A stretch of DNA of 64,000 nt from Toxorhynchites rutilus septentrionalis (lineage: Eukaryota > Arthropoda > Insecta > Diptera > Culicidae): contig NC_073745.1 of the NCBI RefSeq assembly GCF_029784135.1, forward strand, positions 164,547,328 through 164,611,327, written 5' to 3'. A program made the translations under genes and the position numbers. Under the pieces are notes generated by a model. The model was given only the letters and a program-made list of their open reading frames with translations, was not told where the DNA came from and ran no database searches. Below are positions 3,734-64,000 of this stretch, piece by piece (the first letter of the stretch is position 1; every line of letters starts with the position of its first letter).

Positions 3734-3745
3734 ATTACTTATCAA
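3734..3745. repeat. Right target-site duplication of LINE insertion
   Basis: Second copy of ATTACTTATCAA, directly after the A-rich LINE tail. See 1189-1200. Confidence 0.85.
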
Positions 3746-6440: not shown

Positions 6441-6839
6441 AAACACAACAATGGGAGCCTCATATCAACAGTCCTGCTGTGTCCAACTGTGAACATTCGA
6501 ACAATAGAAATATTCTTAGGCTTCATGTGTTGTGTATCGATAGAAAAGGAATGATTACTCTTACGTCTAAATGGCTAATACAATAGACATAGATAAAAAT
6601 GTGTATCGATGAGATAGAAATAGTTTTACGTCTATATGACTACTGTGTAATATACAACATGAGAAAAAATGTACACGATAAATTTGGCTGTTGCAGCTGA
6701 ATTGTTAGATGAGCCTAATAATAAAAATAAAACAGATGGGATAAAAAAAGAGAAACCGACAAGTCACCACCATTGTCAATGTCACCAATCTGCTGAACCA
6801 AAATCTGGAGGAAACCCATGATCACAAGATTTGCAAGTA

Positions 6840-9192: not shown

Positions 9193-9827
9193 ACTTCCCC
9201 TTTTCATTCGTTGAGCCCCGAATCGTTCTTGCTACGCTTTCCATTCAGCTTGCATCAAGAGCAGTTGAACAATATCAGTGTTGGTTCCAGCTTCCGAAGA
9301 TATTTATTTTATGAAAAAAAAATAGTCAGAAATTCGATTAGAAAGTAGTCACATATCGTAAACAGTTCCTTATTTTGTGACGGTCTGTCCCAGTGATCAA
9401 CGTTTTTCTAACGAAAAGCTCAACGACAGTTTCTAGGGACCAACAATACCGCGAAATACCGTGATCGTGTAACATAAAATTGATTAATTTCTTTGAGAAT
9501 CTTCAAAGCCTAAAGATTGTTAATAATGACATTACCGGTAGGCTGATTAGTACAGTGAGCATTGGTAATGACATAGTTTTTACAGTAATGATGTGCGGAA
9601 ATAAAAACATCCGAATTCGCATCATAATTGACCGTAATTCCAACTTTATAATGCTATTATTATGAAAATCGTGATAAAGTATTGTCATTAACGGTGATCG
9701 TAAAAGAGCCGCTTAAGGTTTAAGATCGTCATTAACGCCAATCCAGCGGAAATTGAGCATCGAGTTATAGCACACCAAATAAACTAATGGTCGTAATGGT
9801 TCGAGGCTACTACAGAATATCATAATA
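9193..9827. other. Non-coding stretch, nothing recognised
   Basis: AT-rich DNA without credible ORFs or terminal repeats. A short open stretch at 9480-9665 is low-complexity and has no recognisable domain. Confidence 0.5.
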
Positions 9828-11107
9828 TAAGGCTGTCAAAAAAGTCCTGCGGTATTTTTTTTGAATTTTCATTTGTTCATAAAATTAGTTACAATCATCT
9901 GTTTTAAGTCAAATATGCGCCGTTTTGTTCGATGACTTGTACCCAGCGAGATGCCAATTTCATAATACCCCTGTTATAGAAGCTCGCTTCCTTATTGGCA
10001 AAAAACTCGGATAGCCAATTTTCACAGGCCTCTTTTGTGGCTAACTTCTGACTACCTAGCTCGTTCGCCATGGACAAAAACAGGTGGTAGTCACTTGGTG
10101 CAAGGTCCGGACTATACGGCGGAAGCAAAAGAACCTCCCATCCGAGCTCCCGGAGCTTCTGGCGCGTCACCAAAGAAGTGTGTGGCCTGGCGTTGTCCTG
10201 ATGGAAGACAATGCGGCCTCTGTTTATCAAAGATGGCCTCTTCTTCATGAGTGCTACCTTCAAGCGGTCCAGTTGTTGGCAGTACAGGTCCGAATTGAGC
10301 GTTTGGCCATAGGGAAGCAGCTCATAATAGATTATTCCTTGACAATCCCACCAAACACACAGCAGAACCTTCCTGGCCGTTAATGAGGGCTTGGCCACCG
10401 TCTGAGCCGCTTCAGCGGGCTTCGACCACGACCGTTTGCGTTTCACGTTGTCGTAAGTGACTCACTTTTCATCGCCAGTCACCATCCGCTTCAGAAACGG
10501 GTCGATTTTGTTGCGATTCAGCAGCGATTCACATGCGTCGATACGGTCAAAGATGTTTTTTTGCGTCAACGTGTGTGGCACCCATACATCGAGCTTATTT
10601 GTGAATCCAAGCTCCTTCAAATGGTTAATAACGATTTGATGACTTATCCCCAGCTCTTGGCCGATGCTACGGCTGCTACTATGCCGGTCTTTCTCGGCAA
10701 ATTCAGCGATTTTGTCGCAATTTTCGACGACAGGCCTTCCGGAGCGTGGCGCATCTTCGACGACCTCTACACCAGAACGAAAACATTGAAACCATCGTTG
10801 TGCGGTGGAAATGGAAACTGTATCGGATCCATAAACTGCACAAATTTTATTGGCAGCTTGAGATGCATTTTTGCCTTCGTCATAGTAGTACTGTAAAATA
10901 TGTCGGATTTTCTCTTTATTTTGTTCCATATTTGCGACACTATAACTCACAAACGACTTAACCAAACAAAATACTGTCAAGGACTATAGCGCGCAAAAAT
11001 ATCTTTCCAACAAGCTATAGTATGATTCGATACAATGAATACAACTAGAACTACGCGCTTACAACGACACCTCGCGGAAATACCGCAGGACTTTTTTGAC
11101 AGCCTAA
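9828..11107 (-). mobile_element. mariner element (DD34D), copy 1
   Basis: The ends are inverted repeats (TAAGGCTGTCAAAAAAG left; reverse complement of GACAGCCTAA right) of about 27 bp, with TA at 9826-9827 and 11108-11109. The 1,280-bp length is the family norm. A second copy (29801-31041) shares both ends and the coding sequence, so boundaries are well supported. Confidence 0.92.
9904..10929 (-). pseudogene. mariner transposase with one premature stop
   Basis: The start MEQNKEKIRHILQYYYDEGK (10929) matches usual mariner N-termini; upstream in-frame codons are ignored. The N-terminal paired helix-turn-helix region (QRWFQCFRSG, APRSGRP, RSIGQELGIS) binds TIRs. The catalytic domain has the first Asp in MVTGDEK, the second in FHQDNARPH and the third in YSPDLAPSDYHLF, the DD34D signature. 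Length is 341 codons, normal for the family. The only disruption seen is TGA at 10459-10461 in place of the tryptophan of GDEKW, a single-base change. The frame is open on both sides, so this copy decayed recently. Confidence 0.9.
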
Positions 11108-11109
11108 TA

Positions 11110-13600
11110 TAAAGAATTGGAACACCTGTATACACCAATGTAAGAATGTCACGGTGATCGTTAGAAAGATATTTGGTTCAAATCGTGAATGAAATAAAAA
11201 ATTTCATCAAATTATTATATTCCGATTCATTTTTGACGGAAATTTCACTTTAGTTTTCAAGACTATCGAGCAAACCCCTCCATGACAAGAAGGCTCTATG
11301 CAGAAGACTGAAGTTGCGTATGAATAGAGAACGAACTAACGCGTTGCACTATTGTCTCCTCACTATTCGCTATCGCCATAGTTTATCATTTGATCAGAAT
11401 AAAGAAACTGTCACCTATTCAATATCTTCTAGAAGGGTTTTTCAGTACATCAAAAGAAACAAATATTTTTTGTGGACTATATCGAGTTTTGATTCAAACT
11501 GCTATCTGAGATGTTGGAATAAATGTAATGAAACGTCACATTTGTTGCATTTACGTAACTGAAGTTCACAGTTATAAGTTATAGATGTAATAATTTGTTT
11601 ACTTCCATAGTTAAATTCAACTGCAACGTTTTATTAACTTCAACCTTCGTTTAACCAAAATTATGGGATTTGACAATAAGGAAAAACATGTAACATTCAG
11701 AAACCACACGCGTAAACACCAAATCTTCTCTAAGCTTCTTGATCTGAATCGTTACAGTTGAAGTTTTCAAGTGCCATTGAAATGTTATCCTTTTATTTAT
11801 ATCTACCAAAATTCTATGAAAGGAAAAACATAGAAATACCACAACAAATTTTGAATCATTTGTACCCCTGAATAGTGGCAGGTTTGATGAGGGAGCAGAG
11901 GGCAGATGTTTCACACCTATTTTTTTTTATTAACAACAAAACAAGCGCAGAGAGGAAGTTCCTTGTCGACATAATGCTCATCATAGTTATAATTGACGTG
12001 AAGAGGAGCGATATTTTGCTTTGATGGTGAAAGGTAGCTTTCGGCACGTTATTGGGTTTGTTCGACTATCATCTATTGATGATATCTTGGCGTGAAAATC
12101 AGCAATTTAATTCATTCTTCCACCAGCAGGTAAATAAACAAGGGTGAATAAATTATATTTGAAGCATGATGGTAGCCGAACAGTGGCAGCCATTTTTCTG
12201 AGTTTATGAATCAATTCAAAGAATTAGTTCAGTGTTCAGCTGCTTACAAAAAAACTGATGATCAGTTGGTTTATCCTTCTTTTTTTTTGGCTTCCTTGTG
12301 TTTTTTTAGTTGAATCGCATAAAAGTGTTGTGTATGGCGTGTTAGCTCATTAGGAATTAAGCAGAAAAAGTGTTCACTGGGAAGCAGAAATATTCCTAAA
12401 TTTTTCCAAAATTCACTTCTAGAAAATTGCAACCAACGTATTGCATTGGAGCATTAAATTATCTCTTTCCCTTTCGCCGCAAAAGGCGCCCGGAAAATTC
12501 AAATTATTGTAATTTCGTCGTTTTCTTTTTATCCAGTAATTTGAATAGAAATAAATTTCCTCTCGGCAGATTTGCACATTCATAGCGATGATTTTCCCTC
12601 GATTTATATTCTTTTTCGATCTTCCTTTCTTTGGCTCGATTTCGATACGAACGGTTGCGCTTGGAATACAACCAGACAAATTTATTCATCACTTATAAAT
12701 TTATCATTATTGTCAACATCATCGTTATTATTATCATCATCATTTCCCTTGTCACAACTAATGGTCCTTTTGAGCGAACCGAAGCGAGCCAGGGAAATCG
12801 TTTTCCCATCTCGAGATGGGATTTGTGCTGAATAGGTAAATATTGTTATTTAGCACTACGTCGAATGGATGGGATAGGGAAATCGTGTTTGAAAGATATA
12901 ATACCTTTTCGCTGGACCACAACGAAAGCTTCCTTAAATTGCTCCATGGATTAACGACACAGTTTGCTGTGAAAGAAAAAAAAGGAATTGGAAATTTTCT
13001 TTCCGAATGTTTTCTTGATGATTCTGATAATTACACTTCTCATAAAAAATATTCGATCGAGTGAGTGCTATTGCAATGTAAAACAGGTATGGTACAATAC
13101 ACATTTATTAAGTTGTTGAATAAATAGATTCTTTTGGAACTTCGTTACGTTAATTCCAATGTCTAATTCGTGGAGTCTAAATACTCTTGCACCGCTGATG
13201 TTACTTTTTTTTATTAGAATCTTTTCCCACGCTACACATTTTTTGAGATGTGATAACAACCAGAAGTCAGAGGGATCCAATCTCGATGGCATTAACGTTT
13301 CTAGAGAAGCTTCTGTTCCAAATATGTTTCATGAATGCATTCTATGTAGATATCGTGACTTCAAACTTTTTACATAAGATGACAATCACCCAAAATCACA
13401 ATTTTCATCATCAGCTGAGCAATTTTAATGACGACCGATTTATGTAAGGGCGTAACCAGAGTCATTGAACCTTTTTATAAAAAATTAGAACTCGAAATTC
13501 AGATGTCTGATTAAAAAATGATGCACAGCCAAATTGTTGTGAAATTATTGAAGTATTTAGTAAAAATCACATTTCAGATGCACCGTTAAAAATTGAATTC
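11110..13600. other. Non-coding stretch, no supported gene
   Basis: Both strands show only short ORFs without recognisable domains. A run of TCATC/TTATTA simple repeats lies near 12710-12745. Nothing here supports a gene, RNA or transposon boundary. Confidence 0.5.
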
Positions 13601-14131: not shown

Positions 14132-14273
14132 GTAGAATCGAAGAAAGAACAGTTTAAATCATTACGTCTATTCGTCGAAATAGGCAGAAAGAGTTCATGT
14201 GGGAACATTTTTCTGTAGCAGCGGAAAAAGAAGCAACATCTTAGAAGAGTGGACCAGCACCAAATTTTTCAAC

Positions 14274-15191
14274 ATGGATACAGGCAATCAACACGAAAAC
14301 GCAGACGGGGACGCAGTAGGGCAGAGCGCCACAATCAGTCACAGAGAAGCGGCAGCTGCTGCTGTCAATGTGTTCAATAACAATGTACCATTTCCGGAAC
14401 CGCTATCACTGACGGGGAACGTTCGTCAAAACGTGGATGATTTTATTGACGGTTTTGAGGTTTATCTCATAGCATCGGGGCTAGAGAATCGTGAAGAACG
14501 AGTGAAGGTTGCTACCTTTAAAGCAGCACTTGGTATAGAAGGGCGAAAGATATTCAATAATTGGCCTCTTCGACCGGAAGAGAAGCAAAGTGTCGCAGCG
14601 TGTTTGGAATCGTTAAAGAAGTATACGGTACCAAAGAGAAATGTAAAGTTAGCTCGCTATGAATTTTTGCAGTGCAAGCAACAATCATCTGATGGAGTGA
14701 ATCATGGTGAAACAGTGACTCAATTTATAAACAGAGCAAGAGAACTTGTAAAGGATTGCAACTGGGTCGATTTAGAGGAAGAAAGGCTTCGTGATATAAT
14801 AGTGGCCGGGTTGTGCGATATGCGATTGAAGAAATCTTTTATTGACAAAACCGAGTTGACGGCGACTCAAGTGAATGAACAGTGCATGTCTGAAGAAGCG
14901 ACAAAAGCAGAATTGGATAAAAACAAGTGGTTTGAAGAAGAACATTCAGTGAACAAAGTGTTTTCACGTGAATATAAACAAAAACAATGCGCGTTTTGTG
15001 GAAAGCCTTACCACTGTAAATTGCAAGAGTGTCCAGCACGGGGCAGCACATGTTTCTACTGCTATCAGCGAAATCATTTCGAAATAATGTGTAAAAAAAA
15101 AGCAAGAAGAAAGTACATCGAACCGCGAAGGAAACAACTCAAAGCGCTTTGGCAAGAAGGTGGCTACCATCGGAGAAGCAGATTCGAGTGA
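14274..15191 (+). CDS. Gypsy gag with two zinc knuckles
   Basis: The start chosen is the ATG of MDTGNQHENADGD at 14274; an in-frame Met at 14199 lies in leader-like sequence. The 305-residue product contains a capsid-like helical region (FIDGFEVYLIASGLENREER onward). Near the C-terminus a degenerate knuckle (CAFCGKPYHCKLQEC) precedes a standard CX2CX4HX4C one (CFYCYQRNHFEIMC). It would form virus-like particles and bind genomic RNA. The ORF is intact. It overlaps the downstream protease frame (15160-15191), so pol is probably reached by +1 (or -2) frameshifting. Confidence 0.88.
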   Translation: MDTGNQHENADGDAVGQSATISHREAAAAAVNVFNNNVPFPEPLSLTGNVRQNVDDFIDGFEVYLIASGLENREERVKVATFKAALGIEGRKIFNNWPLRPEEKQSVAACLESLKKYTVPKRNVKLARYEFLQCKQQSSDGVNHGETVTQFINRARELVKDCNWVDLEEERLRDIIVAGLCDMRLKKSFIDKTELTATQVNEQCMSEEATKAELDKNKWFEEEHSVNKVFSREYKQKQCAFCGKPYHCKLQECPARGSTCFYCYQRNHFEIMCKKKARRKYIEPRRKQLKALWQEGGYHRRSRFE

Positions 15192-16845
15192 CAGCTTTGA
15201 ATCAAATAATGAACCATGCGAAGAAAACATTGATACCATAGAGTTTTTGTATAGCATTCAGCAAAACCGAGCCGGTTTGCTGAAAGCAAAGCTTGCTTTG
15301 GGTGATACCGGAAGGCAAACATACTGCATTCTCAACACAGGTGCGACATGTAATGTCATAGGACTACCGTCATTACTCGATATTTTAAACACGAAATCGG
15401 TGAAACTCGATAATCATCAAGCTGTACTGAAAGGATTTGGTGGATCTGCTATAACCACACTGGGAAGAGCAACTGTAGATGTGAAACACGGTGGAAAACG
15501 CTATAAAGCAGTGTTCAATGTGGTGTAATTTAATCAACAACCGATTTTGTCTTTGTATACGTGTAAAAAACTGAGACTGTATTTCTCGGTTGTGGAAGAA
15601 CAAGAAATGGTTGCGAAAAGCATAGTGGGACGTTATCCTGAAGTGTTCCAAGGTATTGGCAAGCTGGAAGGTAAAGTGCATTTAGAAGCCGATCCAACGG
15701 TGAAACCAGTTGTACAGTCAACGCGACGGATTCCAGTCACACTGCGGGACGAGTTACACAAGCAACTCGAAGAAATGGAGAAGCTGGAAATCGTAGCAAA
15801 GGTAGTGGAACCAACTGATTGGGTAAGCAATTTAGTTCTGGTGAAGCATAACAACAAAATAAGAATCTGTATTGATCCAATTGTGGTGAACACCGCACTC
15901 AAGCGTCTACACTATCAAATTCCTACAATTAATGAGCTTCAACCTGAACTGACTAATGCCAAAGTATTTACCACCGTGGACGCAAATTCAGGTTTTTGGC
16001 AAGTTGAACTTGACGAAGAGAGTTCACGACTTACGACCTTCTGGACGCCTTTCGGGCGTTATCGTTGGTTAAGGGTGCCTTTTGGGATTTCTCTGGCACC
16101 TGAAATATTCCAACGGAAGTTATACGAGGTCACTAATGGATTGAAAGCAGTGCGCGTGTTGGCAGATGATGTAATCATTTTCGGATGTGGAAATACTTTA
16201 GAAGAAGCGCTAGCGGATCACAACCGAAATCTAGACGCGTTTCTAAGGAAAATGAGTGAGAAGAGCGTCAAACTAAATAAAGACAAAATTCGTCTATGCC
16301 AATCCAATGTAAAATTTTTCGGGCACATTCTCACTCCAAATGCAGTTAAAGTAGACCCAGAAAAGGTTCGCTGTATTTTAGAAATGCAACAACCGCAGGA
16401 CGTTGCCGCTCTTCTCAGATTCCTTGGAATGATCACATATCTCACCAATTATTTACCCAAGTTTGCTTCAGTAGCAGAACCTCTACGTAAGCTTACAACC
16501 CGTGATAGGAAGTGGCAGTGGGAAAACGAACACCAAAATTCATTTGACGCTCTGAAGACCATGGTGACCCAAACGCCTGTTTTGCAATACTTTTATGTCC
16601 GCAAAGATGTAGTTGTACAATGTGATAGCTTAGGAGCAGTCCTGCTTCAGGACGGTCAGCCGGTTTGTTACACCTCCAAAACTTTGTCCCAAACAGAGCG
16701 AAGATACGCTCAATTAGAAAAAGAAACTCTCGCCATATTATTTGCCTGCAGAAAGTTCGAAATGTATATTATAGGTAAAGACGTTACCGTACAAACTGAT
16801 CACTTGCCTCTTTTGCGTATCTCCCAGAAGCCATTGATCAACTTT
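15160..16845 (+). pseudogene. Gypsy protease, RT and RNase H (5' part of pol)
   Basis: One reading frame with a single in-frame TAA at 15526-15528. The protease motif reads LNTGATCNVIG where LDTGA is expected, so the catalytic Asp is Asn. RT motifs follow: VFTTVDANSGFWQVEL with the first catalytic Asp, RWLRVPFGISLAPEIFQ, and VLADDVIIFG as the YxDD-like box. The RNase H part (VQCDSLGAVLL, EKETLAI, QTDHLPLL) has a shortened first motif. The frame is cut at about 16840 by the nested insertion and resumes at 20676. The stop, the protease change and the insertion make this copy defective. Confidence 0.88.
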
Positions 16846-17159
16846 TTTTTTTAGCGAACATGGTGGTTTGTATATCTTTATAGTGCTGAATTTAAGGTGT
16901 TTTTTTGTGGGAAATAGACGGCTGGAATTAGAACAAATTTGTTCCACCGACGGCGAATTTTAAATATTATCAGGATAAGTACCTATTGAGTGCATGCTGA
17001 TAATTGTTGTGCGTTTTTAAATCAAATTTATATCATGGCTCTACGGCTCGCTATCGCTCAGGATAGCCACCGTAGCTGCTTGTGCTGTGTTGTGTATCGT
17101 TGTATTGTTTTTTTGTTGTCTCTGCTTTTGCCATTGCTGCCGCGCAGGGCACTCTCGAG

Positions 17160-18512
17160 ATGAGCGAGTGCAAGGCGTGCGACGGCAAAGTAATGATCAG
17201 TGATGATCCTGTTGTTTGTGTAGGTAAATGCGGTGTTCGATTTCATCGGCGCTGTACTTCGTTTACAAAAGCAACAGCGAAACTGATAATAGAGAATCCG
17301 AACATTCAGTTTATTTGTGATGAATGTTTGTCGGACCAGAAATGTGGCGTGCGAGGTGATGCTTTAGACGTTGGTGGATTGCAAAGGGAGATGGAAAAGA
17401 TCTCACTTTCGCTCTCTGATGTCCGAGAAAGCTTCACCGAGCAAATAAACATCGCGTTTGAGAATGAGCGAGATAAGCTTATCAGATCTTTCGACGAGCT
17501 TTTCAAAGAGAAGTTGGCATGCTTCGAGAGCAGTGTTGCCAAAAAGTTGGAAAATATGAAAAGCTTATTCTCTGAAAAAATAAATGTTGACAGAAATTTA
17601 GCTGTGATGAACAGGAAGCGACAGGTTAGTCCGAGCTCAATTAGTGCTAATTTGGACACTCCGAGCAAGAAAATTATGTTAACGAATAAAAATAATGATT
17701 TGAAAGAAAAAATGTTTAGAAATAATAATAATAATATTGAAAGTTTCGCTAATGTCGTGGCTCGTAAGGCTCGTCCAGTCATTGTGGTAAAGCCAATAGA
17801 GTCTGACAAGAAAAATGATGATACAAGAAAAATGTTGAAGACTAAATTAGATCCTAAAATACACAAAATAGAGAATTTCAGGAACGGTAAAGATGGCTCG
17901 ATTATTGTTGAGTGTGCAGCAGGGGATAATATTGAGCAAGTGAAAAGTGGAATTGAAAGCAATCTTGGAAAAGGGTTTAGTACTTTTATTCCAAAGCCAA
18001 TAAAACCAAAATTAAAAATTATTGAGATGAGTGATCGATATTCCTCTGATGTTTTCATTGACTACTTAAAGAGTCAAAATGAAAACATTTCGATCAAGGA
18101 TGTCAAGGTCGTTGTTGAATATGAAAATCCACGCTTGAAGTATAATAAATACAACACGATAATTGAAGTTGACCATGATACTTACAGAAACCTGATGACT
18201 GCTAGTAAAGTAAGAGTCGGGTGGGATAAATGTAGCGTGGTTGAGGCCTTTAGTGTTTTGCGCTGTTTTAAATGTGGAGAATTTGGGCATAAGAGCACAG
18301 ATTGCAAGAAAGAACAAACATGTTCAAGGTGTAATGAGAAACATAAAACATCTGAGTGCTCATCAACTAAATTGAAATGCATAAATTGTATCAAAGTTAA
18401 TAATGAACAGAAGTTGAATTTGGATGAAAATCATCCAACTTATAGCACCCAGTGTCCTGTCTATCGGAGACTGCTGGAGAAGAAAAAAAACGTCATTTTT
18501 CAAACCAAATAG
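17160..18512 (+). CDS. CR1-like LINE ORF1: PHD-type finger plus zinc knuckles
   Basis: The start chosen is the Met of MSECKACDGKVMISDD at 17160. The N-terminal Cys/His cluster (CKACDG, CVGKCGVRFHRRC, FICDEC, residues 4-60) resembles a PHD finger. A coiled-coil-prone region follows (about 75-145). Near the C-terminus are CFKCGEFGHKSTDC and CSRCNEKHKTSEC, then CINC. This arrangement is typical of CR1/Q/T1-group ORF1 proteins, which bind element RNA. The ORF of about 450 codons is intact. Its end overlaps the ORF2 frame (18452-18512), which allows coupled translation or re-initiation. Confidence 0.82.
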   Translation: MSECKACDGKVMISDDPVVCVGKCGVRFHRRCTSFTKATAKLIIENPNIQFICDECLSDQKCGVRGDALDVGGLQREMEKISLSLSDVRESFTEQINIAFENERDKLIRSFDELFKEKLACFESSVAKKLENMKSLFSEKINVDRNLAVMNRKRQVSPSSISANLDTPSKKIMLTNKNNDLKEKMFRNNNNNIESFANVVARKARPVIVVKPIESDKKNDDTRKMLKTKLDPKIHKIENFRNGKDGSIIVECAAGDNIEQVKSGIESNLGKGFSTFIPKPIKPKLKIIEMSDRYSSDVFIDYLKSQNENISIKDVKVVVEYENPRLKYNKYNTIIEVDHDTYRNLMTASKVRVGWDKCSVVEAFSVLRCFKCGEFGHKSTDCKKEQTCSRCNEKHKTSECSSTKLKCINCIKVNNEQKLNLDENHPTYSTQCPVYRRLLEKKKNVIFQTK

Positions 18513-19958
18513 CAATTCAAAAAAATATATGTGTGAATAAGTTAGCAATAATTTATCTGAATATAGCTGGGCTTTCTACAAATTACGCAGAAATGCGATA
18601 TCTTGTAGAAAACATGCGTCCTCAGATGGTTTTTCTTTCTGAAACTCACATAATCGATGGAGAATCATATGATCAGTACAAAATTCCGGGCTATAAAGTT
18701 GCTTTTTGCTTGTCGCACTCCAAACACACTGGAGGTGTTGCAATTTATGCAATAGAATCAGTCAAATTCAACATTCTTTTAAACGAAGCTGTTGAAAATA
18801 ACTGGTTCTTGGCTATTTCAGTTGAAAGAGGCATGCAGATGGGAAATTATGGAATTATATATCATTCCCCCAGTTCTAGTGACCAGCGCTTTTGAAACAA
18901 TTTCTAGGCCCTTATTGTTACAAACATTGGAGCGCAATGGAATTGTAGGAATGTCGTACAAATGGTTCGAAAGCTATTTGTGCGACAGAACTCAAAAGAC
19001 TCGTTTTAATGATTCTATTTCCGATCCCATCGGCAACTCACTCGGGGTGCCGCAGGGAAGTGTCTTAGGGCCCTTTTTGTTTATTTTATATATAAATGAT
19101 CTGCGACGGATTTTACGATATTGTGATATCAATTTGTTCGCGGATGATACTGTCCTGTTCATCGCAGCTAAGGATATAAAAGAAACCGAGGATCACATAA
19201 ACGAAGACTTGCATTCTCTGGCTCAGTGGCTTAAATTTAAACAATTGAAATTAAATGTTGGCAAAACAAAATACATGCTGATTTCTTCAGCAAACTCCAG
19301 TATTGACGTAAATTTTGAAATAGATGGTGAGACATTAGAACGCGTGAATGAAATCAAATACCTAGGAGTTATCATTGATGACAATTTAACTTTCAAGTCT
19401 CACATTAATAATGTCATCAAGAAGATTGCCAAGAAATACGGCGTTTTGTGTCGTTTGAAAAAAGAACTGACGGTGAACAGTAAAATTAAATTATATAAAT
19501 CATTGATCTCACCGCACAGAGACTTTTGCTCGTCGATCCTATTCCTTGCAAACAATACACAATTAACGAGATTGCAGCGTTTACAAAATAAGATTATGCG
19601 TTTGATTTTAAGATGTAGTAGATACACTTCCTCTAATTTGATGTTGGACGCGCTACAGTGGCTATCTGTGAAGCAAAGAATTTATTACTTGACAATGGTG
19701 TTCGTCTTCAAAATTTTAAACGGTATGCTGCCTCGATACTTGTGTGATCGAATTGAAAGAGGAAGTGATGTTCATAGATACAATACTAGAAACGCGGATG
19801 ATGCTAGAACACCTAACTTTATATTCAGTAGGTCGCAGAACTCGTTGTTATACAAAGGAATACATTTTTTCAATTCGATGCCCAGAGAAATAAAACGTGC
19901 GGCAACAATGGCAGAGTTTAAGAGAATGTGTATTTCCCACGTAAAATCTGTTTTGTAA
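18452..19958 (+). pseudogene. CR1-like LINE ORF2 with internal deletion (EN fused to RT)
   Basis: The first part contains the start of an APE-like endonuclease: LAIIYLNIAGLSTNYAEM, then MVFLSETHI with the catalytic Glu, then GGVAIYA. At about 18890 the sequence jumps in another frame to RT motif SAFETISRPLLLQTLERNGI. The C-terminal half of EN and the N-terminal half of RT (roughly 1 kb) are missing. The rest of RT is open: GVPQGSVLGPFLFILYINDL, INLFADDTVLF (catalytic FADD), then YLGVIID. The 388-codon open stretch shows modest decay, so the internal deletion is the main lesion. Confidence 0.85.
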
Positions 19959-20339
19959 ACAGGTTTTCGTAATTTTTTTGTCAAATGATTTATTTATGTT
20001 TAATATCAATTGAAATTAGAAAAAATATTTACAGGTATCTCAAACTGCCATGTTTGTACTGATGATGATGATGTTTTTTTGTTGTTAAATTTGTTAAAAT
20101 TGTAGATTATTATAAAAAAAAAAAATTGCGTTGTCTACGAAAGTTTGAGCCTCGCGCGCGTTTGGTGGGCCTGGACGAATGTTAATAATGAACACTGGCA
20201 GAAAACTGACACATAATGAAATTTTTATATAGGGTCTGGAGTGGAAACTGGAATTGGGATAGCTCATTCGGAATTGTCGTAAACTATCTTTCATCAGATG
20301 GTTATATCGATTATTTCTGATTGTAGCAGATCTCTTTTA

Positions 20340-20470
20340 TGTTCTAAGTAGAAACTTTTAGATATTGGGTTCAATTCCCAATCAGTCAAGGATCTTCCCG
20401 GGTTGGAAATTTTCTTGACATGACTTAGAAAAACATTGGGCCTGAAGTTGAGACTATGACTATGTCAATG
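20340..20470 (+). mobile_element. tRNA-derived SINE fragment (Feilai-like body)
   Basis: GGGTTCAATTCCCAATCAGTC (B-box region, about 20368-20388) is followed by AAGGATCTTCCCGGG and GGAAATTTTCTTGACATG. This order resembles the Feilai-type SINEs known from Aedes, recalled from general knowledge and not checked. The 5' head is missing or decayed. It lies in the non-LINE part (20131-20665) of the insert inside the Gypsy element. Confidence 0.45.
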
Positions 20471-20675
20471 TCAATATGGATAGGAACATTGTTTGTTTTT
20501 TCGCAGTTTGTGTTTTTACTGTTCTATTAATAGATATTTATGCCTGCAACAGATCCAGTTCGCTTGGTTTTTTTTTTATAATACTGGTCTCTTGATATTT
20601 TTAAACTTAATTATTATCTATAAGATAAATCGTCCTGCTCAAACCTTTGTAGGGGTATGAGGTGGGCCATTATCA

Positions 20676-22194
20676 TTGAGTGGAGCACCAATGAGACTAC
20701 AGCGAATGCTATTGGAGTTGCAGAGGTATAAACTGAAATTACAGTTCAGACCCGGAAACGAGGTAATAATAGCTGATATGCTGTCACGTGCTGCTATCGC
20801 TGAAGGTGATCCTACCATGAGAGAAATTTATGATATCTACACCATGGACATGGACTTCACCTTTAAGGAGTTGGAGGAAATCAACGTTATGGAGTACATC
20901 CCAATCTCGGATTTTCGTCTAAATCCAATTCGTAGAGCATCAACTGATGACGTCGCTGTCCAAACGATCATCAATTTCATTATCGAAGGATGGTCATCAT
21001 CAATTAATGGCCTTCCGGAACGATTAAAGGTGTTTTGGAAATACAAGGATGACCTCTACACTCAGAACGGGCTTGTCTACATGAACAACCGTATTTTGAT
21101 ACCAGTTGGTATTCGATCAGAAATCTTGGAAAGGCTGCACGTTTCTCACGGTGGAATAGAAAATACTATGAAGCTAGCTCGTGACACAGTTTTCTGGCCT
21201 GGTATAAACGATCAGATAAGACAGCGGATTCAGAATTGCTCCGCATGTATCAAAAATTCGGCTAATCAACAACACCAGCCTATGCAGACACATCAAATAC
21301 CAAGCTATCCGTATCAAAAAGTGAGTCTTGATCTTTGTGAACAGCAGATCAAGGGAAAGAAGCATATCTTTTTGGTGACCGTGGATCATTTTTCAGACTT
21401 CATCGAAGTCGAAGAAATTGCCGGTGAAGCTTCATCGCGAGTTATAGTGCAAAAATGTCGGAGAAATTTCGCTCGTTATGGGACTCCCATGTTCGTTACT
21501 ACTGATGGGGGACCTCAATTCGACAGTGCAGAATTTAGTAAATTTTCTAATGACTGGGAAATCAAACACAGCATGTCAGCTCCTCATCATCAGCAAGGAA
21601 ATGGAAAAGCAGAGGCAGCTGTAAAAATTGTGAAGCAATTGCTGAAGAAGACTTCGGAATTCAACAGCGATTTCTGGATGGCATTACAACAATGGCGAAA
21701 TGTTCCCAACAACTGTGGTAGCTCACCTGCGCAGAAGATGTTTAGTCGCCGAATACGCTTTAATATTCCAATGGCCGAACAAAATTACGCATTTCAAAGA
21801 CAGGAAGGAGTTGAAGAAGCAATCAAACGTAATTGACAGGTTGCTAAATATTACGTTGCCACCATTGCAGATTGGTCAGCCTGTTTTTGTAAAAAAGAAA
21901 CCTGATGACAGGGCATGGACGCCAGCTGTAGTTCGTGACACTTTCAATGATCGTTCAACTATAGTGGAAGTTCAAGGACGGAACCTTCGACGTGATAACA
22001 TAATGGTTAAATCCTTGCCGCTGCAGGAACAACATCACCAGGTAGAACATTCTGACACACAAGACGAACCACACTGCTTATCGCCTTATAGTACTCCACG
22101 AACTTCGCCGCCAGTTCAGCAACCGTCCGCTGAGCAGCCGAAACGGCAGATTCGTTTGCCGAAGCGTCTCGAGAACTATGAATTATATCAGTGA
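20676..22194 (+). pseudogene. Gypsy pol 3' part: RNase H end and integrase
   Basis: The frame resumes with APMRLQRMLLELQRYKLKLQ, the usual end of Gypsy RNase H, and continues to the integrase. The zinc domain has HVSHGG and CSACIK (H-x3-H...C-x2-C). The catalytic core has Asp in KVSLDLCEQ, Asp in TTDGGPQF and Glu in GNGKAEAAVK, the DDE triad. The frame ends at 21836. A second frame (to 22194) carries the C-terminal GPY-like region (PLQIGQPVFVKKKPDDRAW), so a frameshift lies near 21830. No envelope ORF follows before the 3' LTR. Confidence 0.88.
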
Positions 22195-29786: not shown

Positions 29787-29800
29787 TGAAATTTTAAATA

Positions 29801-31041
29801 TTAGGCTGTCAAAAAAGTCCTGCGGAATTTTTTTTGAATTTTCATTTGTTCATAAAATTAGTTACAATCATCTGTTTTAAGTCAAATATGCGCCGTTTTG
29901 TTCGATGACTTGTTCCCAACGAGATGCCAACTTCATAATACTTCTGTTATAGAAGATCGCTTCCTTATTGGCAAGAAACTCGAATAGCCAATTTTCACAG
30001 GCCTCTTTTGTGGCTAACTTCTGACTACCTAGCTCGTTCGCCACGAACAAAAACAGGTGGTAGTCACTTGGTGCAAGGTCCGGAATATACGGCGGATGCA
30101 AAAGAACCTTCCATCCGAGCTCCCGGAGCTTCTGACGCGTCACCAAAGAAGTGTGTGGCCTGGCGTTGTCCTGATGGAAGACAATGCGGCCTCTGTTTAT
30201 CAAAGATGGCCTCTTCTTCATGAGTGCTACCTTCAAGCGGTCCAGTTGTTGGCAGTTCAGGTCCGAATTTAGCGTTTGGCCATAGGGAAGCAGCTCATAA
30301 TAGATTATTCCTTGACAATCCCACCAAACACACAGCAGAACCTTCCTGGCCGTTAATGAGGGCTTGGCCACCGTCTGAGCCGCTTCAGCGGGCTTCAACC
30401 ATGACCGTTTGCGCTTCACGTTAACGTAAGTGACCCACTTTTCATCGCCAGTCACCATTCACATGCGTCGATACGGTCAAAGATGTTTTTTTGCGTCAAC
30501 GTGTGTGACACCCATACATCGAGCTTCTTTGTGAATCCAAGCTTCTTCAAATGGTTAATAACGGTTTGATGACTTATCCCCAGCTCTTGGCCGATGCTAC
30601 GGCTGCTACTATGCCGGTCTTTCTCGGCTAATTCAGCGATTTTGTCGCAATTTTCGACGACAGGCCTTCCGGAGTGTGGCGCATCTTCGACGACCTCTAC
30701 ACCAGAACGAAAACGTTGAAACCTTCGTTGTGCTGGAAGCTGGAAACTGTATCGGGTCCATAAACTGCACAAATTTTATTGGCAGCTTGAGATGCATTTT
30801 TGCCTTTGTCATAGCAGTACTGTAAAATATGTCGGATTTTCTCTTTATTTTGCTCCATATTTGCGACACTATAACTCACGAACGACTTAACCAAACAAAA
30901 CACTGTCAAGGACTATATTATAGGACTATATAATACCTTTCCAACAAGCTATAGTATGACTCGATACAATGAATACAACTAGAACTACGCGCTTACAACG
31001 ACACCTCGCGGAAATACCGCAGGACTTTTTTGACTGCCTAA
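29801..31041 (-). mobile_element. mariner element (DD34D), copy 2
   Basis: Same family as 9828-11107. Left end TTAGGCTGTCAAAAAAG, right end TTTTTTGACTGCCTAA, TA at 29799-29800 and 31042-31043. It is about 40 bp shorter than copy 1 because of an internal deletion at about 30458. Confidence 0.92.
29877..30858 (-). pseudogene. mariner transposase, copy 2, with deletion and frameshift
   Basis: The start Met corresponds to MEQNKEK at 30858. The N-terminal part is open to DTVS at about 30745, where a 1-bp loss relative to copy 1 shifts the frame. A 43-bp deletion at about 30458 removes the segment before MVTGDEKW and shifts the frame again. The catalytic domain is open (29877-30458) with GDEKW intact, FHQDNARPH and PDLAPSDYHLF; YSPDL reads YIPDL. 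Where copy 1 has a stop this copy has Trp, so the two copies decayed independently. Confidence 0.9.
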
Positions 31042-31056
31042 TATATAAATGACAAT

Positions 31057-56955: not shown

Positions 56956-58244
56956 CGAATAGCTTCAATTTGGTTGATAGAAACAATCCAGTTTATCATC
57001 CTTTTTTGGTTTTTTGGCCCCTAGTCCATCTCCGTGGACAAGCGTGGACATTTTCTTACCCCCTATCCCCCCTAAAGTTATCCACGTGGTATGTGGACGG
57101 CTCCTTATGTGAAAAAGTCGCAGTTTTCCAAGAAATAAAAAAAGAAGGGTTTGTTTACTCTCGCCACCTCAAAAATCTTAATATTGTTAATATTTTTGGC
57201 TTATGATTTTACTAAAATACCTTTCACTTGAATTTAAAAATTACAACTAGTGTGCGCGGTTCAAGAGTTACATGTGTTCAAAAATTAACGTATTTAAATG
57301 TCAGTCAGTTTTTCAGATCACCCTAGTTCTGATATGTGTACCCTAAGGGCGAAATAGTGAAGTACATGTCTAATTTTATTTTCTAAAAGTAATAAATATT
57401 GGAGGTTTGAGCAGATGTTTTTTTTTCGGTAGATCTCTTTTTCGTATAATTGCTAATAGAATATATTATTTCAGTACTGAGTTCAATAACAATGGAAATA
57501 AAACATAAACAACTTTTGAAGGGACTGGTTGGATAAGGAAATAGAAAGTACCCTCAAATCCAATCACTATCTCTATGGAAAAAAATGCATAGGGTACCAA
57601 ATATGAAATTATGCCATTTTGTTTGAACCCCTTTTTGGTTCACCATAGGATCTATGATGAAAAACGTACTTTCATTTTTCTTGCCATCCTCATCCTTTCA
57701 CGCCATCCTCAATTCTCTCCGATTTTTTTGAAACTTGGTAGCTACCCAACATCAAAATGTTCATTACCATAAGCACAATTTAAATTACGACTGATTTTCT
57801 GATTGAAATTTAACTGTCACTGTAACGTTTGGTGAAAAAAATAAGTTGAGGAACAAAAAATGAAAAAAAAACTAGGTAATAAAAGATGTTGAGCTCCCAA
57901 TTGAGGGTGGTTTTTGGATATGGCGAGGGTTGGAACAGACTCGCTTACAGAGTGACCTACGATACTTTTGGATTGTAAGTTAACGATTCGAGAACATATT
58001 TCATACATTGCCTCTTTGTTGTGCTTCGCATACCAAAGCAATAAAAACGCCTGACATTATGCAAACAATCTGCTTAATGAACGAAACTTGCCAAATTATG
58101 GGCGATAAGTTGCTCTTCAAACGACACGTCGTGTTGCTAGCGATATGCGTTGCTTTACAAAGGCGATAGCGATATCGTATTGCGTCGGTGTGTGAAATCA
58201 ACAAAATTATATGAAAAAATCCCTTGACGATAATATTCCTTATT
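56956..58244. other. Non-coding stretch with repeat-family edges
   Basis: GATCACCCTAGTTCTGATATG with TACCCTAAGG near 57322-57348 recalls the terminus of the AT-rich family. GTGGACAAGCGTGGACA and CCACGTGGTATGTGGACGG near 57034-57096 form an imperfect inverted pair. No gene. Confidence 0.4.
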
Positions 58245-58606
58245 GGGAACACGAACAATGCCATCAAAACTAATGTTTCGTATATCAAACTAAACAAATA
58301 GTCACACAGCAAATTGATCTGTAATTCCCCGAAATATGTAAACAAAAATATATACAAAAACACACAACAAAAAGAAATTAAATTAATTTTGTGGAGATCT
58401 CAGAGCAATTCAAATCTGGTAACTTAGCTGAATTCTGCCGGCAGTTCACATTGATATCATTTTGGCGGTATTTTCACTCGGTGATAATTTCACTACGCCA
58501 TATAGACCGATTTCAGGCATCCGCATGCGTATTACATTTGTTGGGACAGAACACACGCATTAAAACATAAGCCAAGGCCAGGCAGACATGTACGAACAAG
58601 ATAAAA
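58245..58606 (+). repeat. Left arm of 362-bp long inverted repeat
   Basis: Starts GGGAACACGAACAATGCC and ends CGAACAAGATAAAA. Its reverse complement is at 62903-63264, same length, with only about half a dozen differences found by eye. The arms must be recent or recently homogenised. Confidence 0.92.
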
Positions 58607-58763
58607 GTAGTAAATAAATGAGTATTAGTTTAATGGGGAGAGGATTGCGAGCAGGCATCGAGTGAAGACGTTTGCTTTAGTTGCTCTGTGCTTCGTTTGA
58701 AATAAAAGTGAACAATATACGCGTTGTTGGTCGCTATTTTGGTTTAATTTGCACTAAATATCT
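58607..58763 (+). repeat. Direct repeat, copy 1, first part (A)
   Basis: From GTAGTAAATAAATGAG to CACTAAATATCT. It matches 62425-62581 with no difference seen. In this copy the repeat is split from its second part by a LINE. Confidence 0.92.
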
Positions 58764-61384
58764 TTATTTATTTATTTATTTATTTATTTATTTTATTTTA
58801 TTTAATCCATCTGACATCAAATTGTCTTAATGGACCTAACCAAGTCAGTATCAAATACACGCATTGCGAGTGTCAACTTGTTCTGAAATAATCATTTAAT
58901 CTAATCCGAAGCGCATTGCTAGCGAGATTAAAGTCGAAGATGTGAAAAATCCTATTGAATGTAGCAGACATAAACTCCATCGGATCATGCTGGCCATACA
59001 AACTATTCCGGAAATCGAGCCTAAGGAAATCACGATGACGTAGGGTGCGTTCCGGAGCATACATGTTTAGATTAGCTAGCAAGAAAGGGGAGTCAATCTC
59101 GTTCCTCAGCAGCTTCGCAACAAACATGGCTTGTGCTGCAGATCGCCTGTTTTCCAGAGTATCAATTCGCAGCAGATTACAGCGTTCCTCGTAAGGAGGC
59201 AATTCCCTTGGATTCCGCCATGGAAGATTCCTCAAAGCACGACGTACGAACTTTCTTTGTACAGATTCAATGTGCGCTTTCCAAATGCTGGGGAAAGGGC
59301 ACCATACAACAGAAGCAAATTCCAGGATAGAACGAACCAGCGCACAGTATAGAGATTTCAAGCTAAGCGGATCCTTAAATCCATTGGTTACCTTCAGAAC
59401 AAAACCGAGCTGCTTGTTTGCCCTGGAGATGATGTCATTGTAGTGGTAGATAAAAGTGAACTCCTTGTCAAGCATTACACCCAAGTCGCGCACTTGTTGA
59501 ACCCGCTCGATGGCTTTGCCGGATAACATGTAGGAGAAATTGATGGGATTCCGCTTTCTGGTGAACGATATAACTTGGCATTTCTTGACGCTTAACGTCA
59601 TACAATTTCGTACACACCACGTCTCAAAAATGTTCAGCAAGCTTTGAAGATGATGACAATCATTTATGTCTTCGACAATAACGTAGACCTTAGAATCATC
59701 AGCATAGAAGAGTCTCGTTCCACGTGGCAGGATGAAGGACACGTCGTTTATAAATAATGCAAAAAGTAAGGGGCCTAAATTGCTCCCCTGAGGCACTCCA
59801 GATATGTTTGTGAACGACTCGGACTCATGTGACCCTATTCTCACACACAAAGCTCGATTCTTCAGGTAGGACTCGAACCACTCGACAAAACTAAGGGCTA
59901 CGCCACATTTCGCTAGTTTTTCGAGAAGGATTTGATGATCAACCCGGTCAAAAGCTGCCTTCAAGTCCAAGTAGACGGCATCCACTTGGTTACCAGCATC
60001 CATGGCGCGAATACAACGCGATGAGAACTCAACTAGATTGGTGTTCACGGATCTTTGTGGGTAGAAACCATGCTGATTCGTTGAGATGTACTGCTTGCAA
60101 CTAGCAAAAAGCGATTCATTCATAATGATCTCAAACAGCTTCGAGCAGGCGCAAAGAGAAGTAATGCCGCGATAATTTTTAGCATCTCGTTTATCTCCTT
60201 TCTTGTGGATGGGGAATAGGTACGATTTTTTCCAGCTCGAGGGAAACACACGTTGCTGCAGTGATCGATTAAAAAGTTTCGTCAGCGGAGAGGCCAGTGC
60301 AGAACTGCATTTTTTCAACACTGCAGGTGAAATTCCATCTGGGCCTGGAGCATACGAGAATTTAAGCCTTTGAATTGCTTTGACTACATCCTGTTCAGAT
60401 ATTTCGAACATTTCAACGCTATATACATCCTGGGGAGCATCCTGGACAGATAATCTCACCTGTTCAGGTTGAGCTGTATAACTGTTGATGGCGCGTTTGA
60501 ACTGTCGTGCAAATAGTTCGCATTTTCCACTGATCGAGTCAGCAGAAAGTTCGTCAAGATACATTGATGTCGGGAGACCGTTTTCATTTCGCTTTGAGTT
60601 GACGAACGACCAGAACCGTTTTGGATTCACACGTAGGCTCTCCTCAATACGAATCTTGTATCTGGCATACAAAAATCCATTGTATCTCCTGTACTCATTA
60701 CTGGTCCGATTGAACTGCAGCTTCGAGTGTTGAGAACGTTGACTGCAGTAGGAACGTAGAGCAGCAGATCGACGACGTTTCAGCAAGCGTAAACGGTTGT
60801 TTGACCATGGCGGTTTACACGGAGGAGACTTCAAAGGAACGTGTGCTGTAATCGCCTGAAGTACAGCGTTGGAGAAGAATCCAACTGCTCTATCGGTATC
60901 TTGAATCGTGTCCAGAGTATTCCAGTCGACCACGAGTAATGCTGCACATAAATGCTCAAAATTGGCCCGTTTGAAATCGAAACCAGGATCGTTACGTTCT
61001 GTTTCGTATGTTACAGCCGTTGGATATGCAACGATTAGCTCGAGTGGAGGATGACGAGGATCAATCCTAGAGAGCGATTCAACGGATTCGCTAATCTGGT
61101 AACCAGGTAGCACGATGTCGTTTACGAGGACAAGATCAAGAGTCCTGTTCTCTGCATTCTCCAAGCTGTTAACTTGGGACAAGCCGTGGAAGCAGAAACC
61201 ATCCAGAAATGAGCAGCTGGCAGCACACGGTCGAGAGCGATCCAGATCAACTGACGCGTAGTCATCCTCGTTAACAGCCCAGTGCACATCACAGAGATTA
61301 TAATCACCAAACTGTAGTGCAATGTCGTTAGGAGAGAGATTCGAATGGATTGCGCCAATTGAATCGATGTGTTTACGAATAGAA
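58764..61384 (-). mobile_element. 5'-truncated Loner/Jockey-like LINE, young insertion
   Basis: A minus-strand element whose tail is a tandem (AAAT)n array (58764-58805 on the plus strand as TTTA repeats). It interrupts the 392-bp direct repeat between A and B. The second repeat copy (62425-62816) is uninterrupted, an empty-site control. TAAATAT at 58755-58761 and 61385-61391 is the likely target-site duplication. It lacks ORF1 and the N-terminal part of the endonuclease. Confidence 0.9.
58873..61384 (-). CDS. LINE ORF2 fragment: endonuclease C-terminal part and RT, open
   Basis: The frame is open from the 5' truncation point (61384) to the stop at 58873, about 837 codons, with no lesion seen. 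Upstream of the first Met (61287) the in-frame codons already encode endonuclease sequence (LSPNDIALQFGDYNLCDVHW), so translation would not naturally start here. RT motifs: YAPGPDGISPAVLKK, NYRGITSLCACSKLFEIIM, VYLDLKAAFDRVDHQILL, NISGVPQGSNLGPLLFAL and RLFYADDSKVYV with catalytic YADD, then RDLGVMLD. No RNase H follows. The full-length protein would nick DNA and reverse-transcribe its RNA. The clade is uncertain (Jockey or Loner-like). Confidence 0.9.
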
Positions 61385-61391
61385 TAAATAT

Positions 61392-61626
61392 GTTCATCGA
61401 GTGTCTGTTCTTGTGAAAAAATTGTCCGAAAAACACGTAATATATCAAGTTAATCGTTTAAATTCATATTGTTTCCGCGGGAGCGAGTGCATTTTTTAGT
61501 TTCGGCATGTTCAATTATATACACGCGTCCGTTTTTCACTTTCGTGTTGTGACATGATTTCCAATCGCGATTAAAAATGTGAAATGGAGTTCAGTTTTGG
61601 CCAATTGGTTCAATAAATGAAATTTC
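61392..61626 (+). repeat. Direct repeat, copy 1, second part (B)
   Basis: From GTTCATCGAGTGTCTGTTC to AATAAATGAAATTTC, the same as 62582-62816. Together with A it makes one 392-bp unit. Confidence 0.92.
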
Positions 61627-62004
61627 TTATTGTTCCGATTCCGCTTATTCCGAGCCGCTTAAATAGGATAAATTGGAGACAACGTATGAAATACTCTTGG
61701 TTTTACTATTGCATTATCAAATATTCAACCGATAAAGTGCCTAAAAACACTTCACCGTTCCCTTATTCGCTTCTATCTCGGAATATTTTTTTGTAGTTTT
61801 GGCTCCGTATTACGATAACAGTATCCGAGTCCGTTCAACGGAAATTTGTACGCTTCGCTTTACATGGAATATCCTGGAATGATCCTAAAAATCTCCCTAG
61901 CTGCGACGATCGTGATAAGATTGGTTTGGAATTTAATCTACTTTGCGAACGACTTAACATCCCATAAGTTAGATAGAGACAAGTTCAAGGTTATAATCAG
62001 TGTT
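61627..62004. other. Unique spacer inside the composite
   Basis: Lies between the direct repeats. No domain is recognised in its short ORFs. Confidence 0.4.
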
Positions 62005-62430
62005 GACACACGTACAGATTTATCTGGAATGGTACATATTTTTTCGTTATTTTTGGTACAGATTCTGTACGGTACACAGTAGAGCTTTCGTCAAAAAGTA
62101 CAGATTGGTACAGAATGGTGGACAAAAAATGGATGCCCTAAAATAAATTGTCGGTTCGCTCTCCTTTTCGGCGCTTCGATGCCTTGTTTGTAACGTTCTC
62201 ACTATGCCTCACTCCTCGGCAACTGTTGAGCGTTTTTTTTCTGAATATAATCAGAAATCGGCTCAGCAACGATACGAAGAACGCTATTATGAGATGAAAA
62301 GAATTTGGTCAAAAATCCTTGTAGCAACTCGAAAATTTAAAAAAAAATGCAATCTAGATTCAGAAATACTATGTTTAAGCATCATCAAACACACGAATGA
62401 CTTGCAAATGCAAATAAAGTATTTGTAGTA
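62005..62430 (+). pseudogene. hAT-like element remnant with transposase C-terminus
   Basis: CAGTGTTGACACACGTACAG at 62005 resembles a hAT-type end. After TGTACAG-rich sequence the frame at 62204 reads MPHSSATVERFFSEYNQ, the start of the hAT C-terminal dimerisation region ('PxSSAxVERxFS'). In a neighbouring frame NRLSNDTKNAIM continues the motif, so there is a frameshift. The 62204 frame ends 62426-62428 (KYL, stop), at the very start of the second direct repeat. The catalytic DDE part is missing. It may be an internally deleted hAT copy, or the 3' end of the element that owns the long inverted arms. Confidence 0.6.
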
Positions 62431-62816
62431 AATAAATGAGTATTAGTTTAATGGGGAGAGGATTGCGAGCAGGCATCGAGTGAAGACGTTTGCTTTAGTT
62501 GCTCTGTGCTTCGTTTGAAATAAAAGTGAACAATATACGCGTTGTTGGTCGCTATTTTGGTTTAATTTGCACTAAATATCTGTTCATCGAGTGTCTGTTC
62601 TTGTGAAAAAATTGTCCGAAAAACACGTAATATATCAAGTTAATCGTTTAAATTCATATTGTTTCCGCGGGAGCGAGTGCATTTTTTAGTTTCGGCATGT
62701 TCAATTATATACACGCGTCCGTTTTTCACTTTCGTGTTGTGACATGATTTCCAATCGCGATTAAAAATGTGAAATGGAGTTCAGTTTTGGCCAATTGGTT
62801 CAATAAATGAAATTTC
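62425..62816 (+). repeat. Direct repeat, copy 2, intact (A plus B)
   Basis: 392 bp, uninterrupted, the empty-site copy for the LINE at 58764-61384. It is followed by 86 bp unique to this side (62817-62902) and then the right inverted arm. Confidence 0.92.
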
Positions 62817-62902
62817 CTTTGTTTTTCGGCCGATAACGTTGAAAGTCAACGAAGTATTCGTTTTTTTGTCGCGAGTGATGTACCGGCCTGGGGCCGCACG
62901 TA

Positions 62903-63264
62903 TTTTATCTTGTTCGTACATGTCTGCCTGGTCTTGGCTTATGTTTTAGTGCGTGTGTTCTGTCCCAACAAATGTAATACGCATGCGGATGCCTGAAATC
63001 GGTCTATATGGCGTAGTGAAATTATCACCGAGTGAAAATACCGCCAAAATGATATTAATGATAACTGCCGGCAGAATTCAGCTAAGTTACCAGATTTGAA
63101 TTGCTCTGAGATCTCCACAAAATTAATTCAATTTCTTTTTGTTGTGTGTTTTTGTATATATTTTTGTTTACATATTTCGGGGAATTACAGATCAATTTGC
63201 TGTGTGACTATTTGTTTAGTTTGATATACGAAACATTAGTTTTGATGGCATTGTTCGTGTTCCC
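62903..63264 (-). repeat. Right arm of 362-bp long inverted repeat
   Basis: Inverted copy of 58245-58606. The outer edges are CCTTATT before the left arm and TTTATG after the right arm; a short TTAT duplication is possible but not convincing. Confidence 0.92.
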
Positions 63265-64000
63265 TTTATGTAGGCGGGGGTGATAATGGATTTCAGGAGA
63301 GTATAAGGTCTTTTCAGTAGTAGTTTTGGATGAGATTTGCCTTTTGGGTATCGGATGTGTGTTTTATGTGGTTGAGTAACGGGTTTTAGTAGGACATTCT
63401 TGAGCCGGTGTTGTGTCTGACAGTGATTTTATGCTGTAGTGGTGAGTTTTTGTGGAAATGTCAAAGATTTGTGGAGGAATGGTTGGGTTGGGGGCTACGT
63501 GTTTTGAGAGGTCGAATGACACGAGTAAGAGTTTTTATTTATAGTTTCAAGAATTCTTATTTTCATCCGGGCCTTCCAATGTGACAAAGTAATTTGCCTC
63601 ACGAACACGACGTCGCAGCCAGAGTGTTATTGCTGTGAATTCAAGGAAGAGGTGTGTGTTTATGTTTATACTTTGTATCTCATCCATAGGTTTTCATGTG
63701 TGCGTGGTTTGATGTTCAGGGATACCAGGTGTTTTTTAAATTTTTACTTGTGTTCAACAAAACTTTGGGAAGTCTGTAAATGTTTTCACATGTTTAAGAA
63801 TGTCTTCACTGTAAGTTTTCAGAGTGAAGTACGTCGTAATATAGTTTCTTATAATTTGGTGGTGGTTGCGTGGTGAGTTAATATAATGTCTAACATTTCT
63901 GTATTTTTTTATATTGTTTGTTTTCTTTCGTATTTTCATGTTTGTTTGTATACAAAAGTTTCGGGAATCCTTGGTTTTAGAGGAGTTTTCACGGTTACCT
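63265..64000. other. G/T-skewed non-coding stretch to window end
   Basis: The first 270 bases of the plus strand are strongly rich in G and T and poor in C, unlike the rest of the window (for example GGGGGTGATAATGG and TAGTAGTTTTGGATGAG). No coding frame with a recognised domain and no terminal repeat is seen. Confidence 0.5.

Follow-up and report, generated by a model that had tools for sequence, protein, structure and literature searches.

A composite of inverted arms and direct repeats in Toxorhynchites rutilus septentrionalis: most likely a stack of ordinary insertions and one templated repair patch

We analysed a 64,000-nucleotide stretch of the genome of the mosquito Toxorhynchites rutilus septentrionalis (NCBI RefSeq assembly GCF_029784135.1, contig NC_073745.1, positions 164,547,328 to 164,611,327 of the forward strand; hereafter the window), in which positions 58245-63264 form a composite of two long inverted arms and two identical direct repeats, here called blocks. 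A preliminary description, made from the letters of the window, had offered an undescribed family with long terminal inverted repeats (TIRs), a rearranged transposon pair or an assembly artefact as its origin. Comparison with the rest of the genome suggests that the locus is most likely a stack of ordinary insertions, namely a hAT deletion derivative, a retroposon named E and a long interspersed nuclear element (LINE), together with one templated repair patch copied from the 5' end of E.

Results

Repeats of the composite

The left arm (58245-58606, minus strand) is the reverse complement of the right arm (62903-63264, plus strand), with 356 of 362 positions identical and no gap. The left block is interrupted by the LINE at 58764-61391. 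With the LINE excluded, its two parts, both on the plus strand (58607-58763, identical to 62425-62581, and 61392-61626, identical to 62582-62816), match the right block (62425-62816, plus strand) at 392/392 positions. An 86-bp unit (62817-62902) separates the right block from the right arm, and the composite without the 2,628-bp LINE measures 2,392 bp. The near-identical arms of equal length, the 392-bp blocks without a difference and the length of about 2.4 kb given in the preliminary description were all borne out. With BLAST E-values of 0, 1e-125 and 1e-80 for the three matches between repeats, chance is excluded as their origin. Two arm-pattern searches of viral contigs gave 0 matches each, and a block-pattern search matched 2 viral contigs (L008 and L009). 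In bacterial genomes the arm pattern was found in 7 contigs, where all arm alignments were ≤23 bp and the other parts gave short matches at chance level.

The right half is the 5' end of retroposon E

The genome searched was 902 Mb in size, and all match counts are lower bounds. The arm gave at least 12 matches, two of which are the window's own, and 9,901 bases were fetched around each of the ten others. Seven of these loci are close copies (L018-L024) and three are diverged relatives at 68-72% (L025-L027). A single arm or part of an arm was present in all seven close copies, and a second arm, an inverted pair or a second block was found in 0/7 within the ~9.9 kb around each. Three copies (L018, L019 and L020) reach the unit and the block, and in these the block, unit and arm are contiguous and always in that order. 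Similarity among the copies runs beyond 63264, where L024 deviates, and ends at a common 3' end at 64682-64686 in 6/7 copies; the match of L023 ceases at 63373. The 5' starts of the seven copies vary (62457, 62458, 62771, 63010 in L024, which has a break, 63032, 63060 and 63147). The tail at the common right end is CAAGCTCAAGCT or a close form of it. Target duplications of 20-25 bp were detected for the window copy and for four of the six other copies tested (L018, L020, L021 and L022); for L019 and L024 nothing rose above shuffled sequences, and L023 was outside the tested set.

Because of its shared 3' end, variable 5' ends, tail and 20-25 bp target duplications, E is by pattern a 5'-truncating retroposon of the type without long terminal repeats (non-LTR). 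The window copy, a non-coding LINE-like element, lies on the plus strand at 62454-64683 (2,230 bp, the last 683 bp beyond the window). It is flanked by a 24-bp target duplication, with the left copy at 62430-62453 (plus strand) and the right copy at 64684-64707, beyond the window. The right half of the composite (block, 86-bp unit and right arm) is the first 0.8 kb of E. More precisely, the right block consists of 5 bp of hAT flank, the target duplication and the first 363 bp of E, and the right arm is internal E sequence. The right arm does not end the element; this escaped the preliminary description as the window ends at 64000, and the family sequence runs to 64683 in most copies. The outer end of the left arm (58245) is likewise a break and not a terminus, since family copies extend past the equivalent point.

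No reverse transcriptase of its own was found in E, whose longest open stretch is 151 aa on the minus strand, and blastx of E against 120 LINE proteins returned one match only, with an E-value of 0.59. As E has neither a long open reading frame (ORF) nor a convincing LINE-protein match, it is presumably mobilised by another LINE. E shares with non-autonomous non-LTR retroposons the constant 3' end, the truncation of the 5' end at variable points, the 20-25 bp target duplications and the short tandem tail; it differs in being 2.2 kb in length with no coding capacity. The body of E is strand-biased, with a GC skew of 0.589 and an AT skew of -0.343 at 63250-63499; over 63250-64683 the sense strand is G- and T-rich and has no long ORFs. 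The last 350 bp of E recur at 92% identity in L027 (2112-2461) and in a further locus, L060 (267-615). Upstream of this shared 3' end the similarity is patchy in L027 and absent from the 266 upstream bases of L060, as if the 3' end were a module common to several retroposons. L025 contains a diverged stretch resembling E next to reverse transcriptase sequence of a LINE on the opposite strand (3703-5021 and 5333-8159).

E landed in a hAT deletion derivative

The left part of the hAT deletion derivative occupies 61998-62429 on the plus strand. The whole element, interrupted by E, spans 61998-64838 and passes the window end; its ends are CAGTGTTG, and the same 8-bp target duplication, GTTATAAT, flanks it on either side. 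Upstream of it, the spacer between the two blocks holds an old LINE shard (61827-61961, plus strand), detected by tblastn with LINE relatives (best E-value 5e-10). The hAT remnant of the preliminary description is upheld, on the firmer ground of these ends and this duplication rather than of the C-terminal peptide on which it had been based. That peptide carries what we take to be a hAT C-terminal motif; the degenerate hAT C-terminal peptides and the shard peptides had no Pfam match, a 74-aa hAT piece gave no homologue candidate, and a search of PDB gave no match.

A genome search with the spacer yielded 3,119 candidate relatives; we scored 40 and fetched 14 (L039-L052). The E target could be aligned across in 13 of the 14 fetched hAT relatives and was uninterrupted in 12, reading much like TTTGTAGTAAATAAATGAGTATT..TTTAATGCTAAT. 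L048 and L041 align for just 9 and 13 bases past the target, L043 has a deletion at this point and the alignment of L045 ends before it. Since the relatives carry the target uninterrupted, the block opens with hAT sequence, namely GTAGT and the following 24 bp. The hAT stop codon that had been noted at the start of the second block is indeed there, but the position reflects a coincidence of where copying started, GTAGT being hAT sequence.

A LINE is nested in the left block

The 5'-truncated LINE in the left block (58764-61391, 2,628 bp, minus strand) has a (TTTA)n tail on the plus strand and an RVT_1 match (E=6.7e-28). Its open frame (58873-61449) extends into the block at the upstream end. 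The three closest relatives are 62-69% identical, and those relatives that carry an organism name are mosquitoes. No clear target duplication was found at the LINE junctions (58763/61392), where AAATATCT precedes the element and AAATAT and then GTTC follow it, although the tail and the reading frame of the LINE look young. As it is present in the left block only, the LINE came after the copying of the block. E, the hAT element and the nested LINE are separate insertions.

The left block, and probably the left arm, were copied from the neighbouring E locus

The left block carries the same GTAGT, 24-bp target duplication and first 363 bp of E as the right block. A genome search with the block gave at least 8 matches. 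Positions 1-32 were included only in the two window copies, all others starting at position 33 or later, and the first 29 bp (hAT flank and target duplication) were joined to E only in the two window copies. Since the block holds the hAT flank and the target duplication of this particular E insertion, the donor of the left block is this locus. On this comparison the left block must have been copied from the present locus, 0.8 kb away, after E had landed.

For the arms, the six differences were polarised with 3 to 5 other copies per site. Five of the six changes fell in the right arm and one in the left, and three of the right-arm changes cluster within seven bases. The left arm is 1 change away from the inferred earlier state of the donor and 8 changes from the next closest copies; because five of the six differences arose in the right arm, the left arm is very close to that earlier state. 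The left insert (arm and block) is 754 bp in length. The homology at the three joints is 0-1 bp, with 0 bp at 58606/58607. In keeping with a templated insertion, the donor can be identified (62425-63264) and the homology at the break ends is 0-1 bp.

Host repeat of the insert

The insert lies in a copy of an abundant short repeat, here called F. The left piece of F (58015-58244, plus strand), host of the break, is shared by eight relatives (L055-L062) at 88-92%. A probable right tail of F, CTTATTGTTCCG..CGAGCCGC, is found at 61626-61665 on the plus strand, sharing base 61626 with the block (best score 24 vs. a shuffle maximum of 20). In 9 of 10 aligned relative copies the first CTTATT is followed by GCATGTTGATAG. 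A second motif, CTTATTG (once CTTAATG), with CTCCGG and GAGCC after it, is present in 7 of 10, and the spacer continues like this second motif. When the spacer start was aligned locally with the family tail, the score for one copy exceeded those of all 300 shuffles, and for six copies the score was reached by 3 to 13 of 300 shuffles. The left flank and the spacer start thus look, if weakly, like two parts of one repeat copy. The joined flanks (58045-58244 plus 61632-61831) gave 667 candidates in the genome; among the 40 scored, none matched both flank halves of an unpatched site. In two relatives (L059 and L062) the short repeat is present as two copies 327 bp apart, a dimeric arrangement.

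CTTATT flanks the insert on both sides. Since 7 of 10 relatives have the second motif and the spacer continues like it, the CTTATT pair is probably native host-repeat sequence and not a 6-bp duplication. We favour the view that the sequence between the CTTATTG motifs was lost at the break, probably as a small target deletion.

Discussion

Proposed origin of the patch

We consider it very probable that the patch is a DNA-templated two-piece insertion into a break, by whichever polymerase route, template switching included. The order of events would be hAT, E, patch and LINE. A break in a copy of the common short repeat (now 58244/61626) would have been filled with 754 bp from the 5' end of E, which lies 0.8-1.6 kb further right. 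First in the patch would be 62903-63264 as its reverse complement, followed by 62425-62816 in direct orientation. By the likeliest route, the left break end would have been extended on the donor plus strand from 63264 to 62903 and the right break end on the same plus strand from 62816 to 62425. Both new ends would then have been joined without homology, giving a DNA version of the twin-priming geometry, and the LINE would have inserted into the patch afterwards. One and the same strand is copied in the two pieces, which are of similar length (362 and 392 bp) and are separated in the donor by the 86 bp that stayed uncopied.

We infer a single repair event with DNA as its template. A DNA rather than an RNA template is suggested because upstream hAT DNA is present, the 3' end and tail of E are absent and the donor is 0.8 kb away. 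Only tentatively do we suggest that both 3' ends lay on one neighbouring single strand and were extended in tandem, by 362 and 392 bp at a nearly fixed distance, before being joined. If true, this would be a DNA-only counterpart of LINE twin priming, and such a patch would be easily taken for a long-TIR transposon.

The nearest published match, though not an identical one, is the class of double inverted insertions in yeast (PMC11724301). There, two inverted-orientation fragments of one locus are a common form of complex insertion at breaks, with homology of 0-4 bp at the break ends and 2-11 bp between fragments. The median pieces given there are 50 and 150 bp, and the joined points are 2-20 or 30-119 bp apart. 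The mosquito patch resembles these insertions, as described there, in that pieces of one locus lie in opposite orientation in one break with almost no break-end homology; it differs in that the donor lies in cis at 0.8 kb and the event is a natural germline one (PMC11724301).

Several observations weigh against the proposed origin. The arms differ at 6/362 positions and the blocks at 0/392 (Fisher p 0.012; 0.053 if the cluster is counted as one change), which speaks mildly against one event or in favour of another donor allele. With this gap in divergence, one event would require either some luck or a second allele of the donor. The spacer start matches the repeat tail over a short length, three copies (L055, L056 and one of the two in L059) gave no signal (97, 167 and 35 of 300 shuffles, respectively), and no unpatched allele was seen among the 40 of 667 joined-flank candidates scored. 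Set against the values in PMC11724301, the homology between the mosquito pieces is 0 bp vs. 2-11 bp in yeast, and the pieces are 362 and 392 bp vs. medians of 50 and 150 bp. The donor geometry also differs: the points joined in the mosquito patch, 62903 and 62425, lie 478 bp from each other, with the 86-bp gap between the other ends, vs. 2-20 or 30-119 bp between joined points in yeast (PMC11724301).

Alternative explanations

The equal length and 98% identity of the arms would suit a true long-TIR element that has direct repeats inside it. This reading is practically out of the question: two arms or two blocks are seen in 0 of the seven further close copies, the ten arm matches outside the window include no dispersed second composite, the right arm ends on its outer side within E, with more family-shared E sequence beyond, and the arms have no flanking target duplication. 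The undescribed long-TIR family of the preliminary description is abandoned on the same ground, as each of the seven close copies has one arm and the block at most once. The genome search that it had recommended, with arm and block for copies sharing the full order, revealed no second composite, the block, unit and arm occurring in a single order in three copies. Its rearranged transposon pair was right in spirit as to rearrangement, but no pair is involved; one retroposon 5' end appears to have been copied into a nearby break. Foldback and Galileo transposons have long inverted arms. The composite has these in common with them and differs in having no second copy and in arms that are not termini. 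An LTR element (block-spacer-block) was rejected because the block is 5 bp of hAT flank, the target duplication and the E 5' end, not an element terminus. The long-TIR element, the LTR element, a hAT element with a duplicated 3' untranslated region and an interrupted gap-repair product of a hAT element were all rejected because the block, unit and arm form one contiguous E 5' segment in genome copies. The block as LINE coding sequence was also checked and dropped. Repeats of this kind can be misassembled, yet an assembly artefact is highly unlikely: the arm differences are polarised against the E family, the later LINE is in the left block alone, and the E and hAT flanks are coherent with intact target duplications.

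Replication template switching would produce the same final order, the fork leaving the host repeat, copying 63264 to 62903, turning, copying 62425 to 62816 and returning. Microhomology-mediated break-induced replication (MMBIR) and fork stalling and template switching (FoSTeS) are names for this type. The local position of all pieces and the return of the path to its departure point fit it, while the homology of 0-1 bp at the three junctions gives no sign of microhomology priming. We regard this route as rather unlikely, its probability being part of that given above to DNA-templated insertion. Template switching and end-templated repair lead to an identical outcome, and one allele does not distinguish them. 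In an insertion by LINE machinery, a read-through transcript of the E locus would instead be reverse transcribed from the two sides of a staggered cut (twin priming), leaving CTTATT as a 6-bp target duplication. Both pieces do use the strand offered by a sense E RNA, CTTATT is found on both sides of the insert, and the short stretch missing between the pieces agrees with the definition of twin priming in PMC2837659. This explanation is nevertheless improbable. The recognisable target duplications of E are 20-25 bp and absent at the insert, whose CTTATT pair is probably native host-repeat sequence. E copies with a visible 3' end have a CAAGCT-type tail, and the insert has neither the tail nor the E 3' end, stopping at the counterpart of 63264 in E, 1.4 kb short of the tail. 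It also includes 29 bp of DNA from upstream of E, and a donor 0.8 kb away is not favoured by the RNA route.

Compared with LINE twin priming as defined in that source, the templated patch is alike in its inverted and sense pieces, one template strand and a gap between, and unlike in the absence of the E 3' end or tail, the included upstream flank and the lack of a convincing target duplication (PMC2837659). Class 2 templated sequence insertion polymorphisms (PMC5110952) share with the patch copied DNA filling a break; the patch differs in its adjacent rather than distant donor and in its two pieces. The templated-insertion chains and cycles of cancer genomes likewise have copied segments strung together and a return to the host site. 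Their segments are typically from different chromosomes, whereas the mosquito patch has two sub-kilobase pieces from one neighbouring locus (PMC7025897).

This analysis eliminates what had looked like a candidate for a new transposon family. A templated repair patch beside a retroposon can mimic a transposon, with equal-length inverted arms and perfect direct repeats. The donor is uniquely labelled by its own target duplication, so that a single allele reveals the donor, in which direction it was copied and how the events were ordered; this should aid the study of natural germline patches.

Other elements in the window

ORFs at 14184-22194, which we take to belong to an LTR retrotransposon (gag, reverse transcriptase and integrase), are split by a LINE-like element at ~17076-19958; the gag is a weak Pfam match (E 0.043). 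Two mariner-like copies at 9824-11111 and 29797-31045 are 95-96% identical, with a Transposase_1 match in the first.

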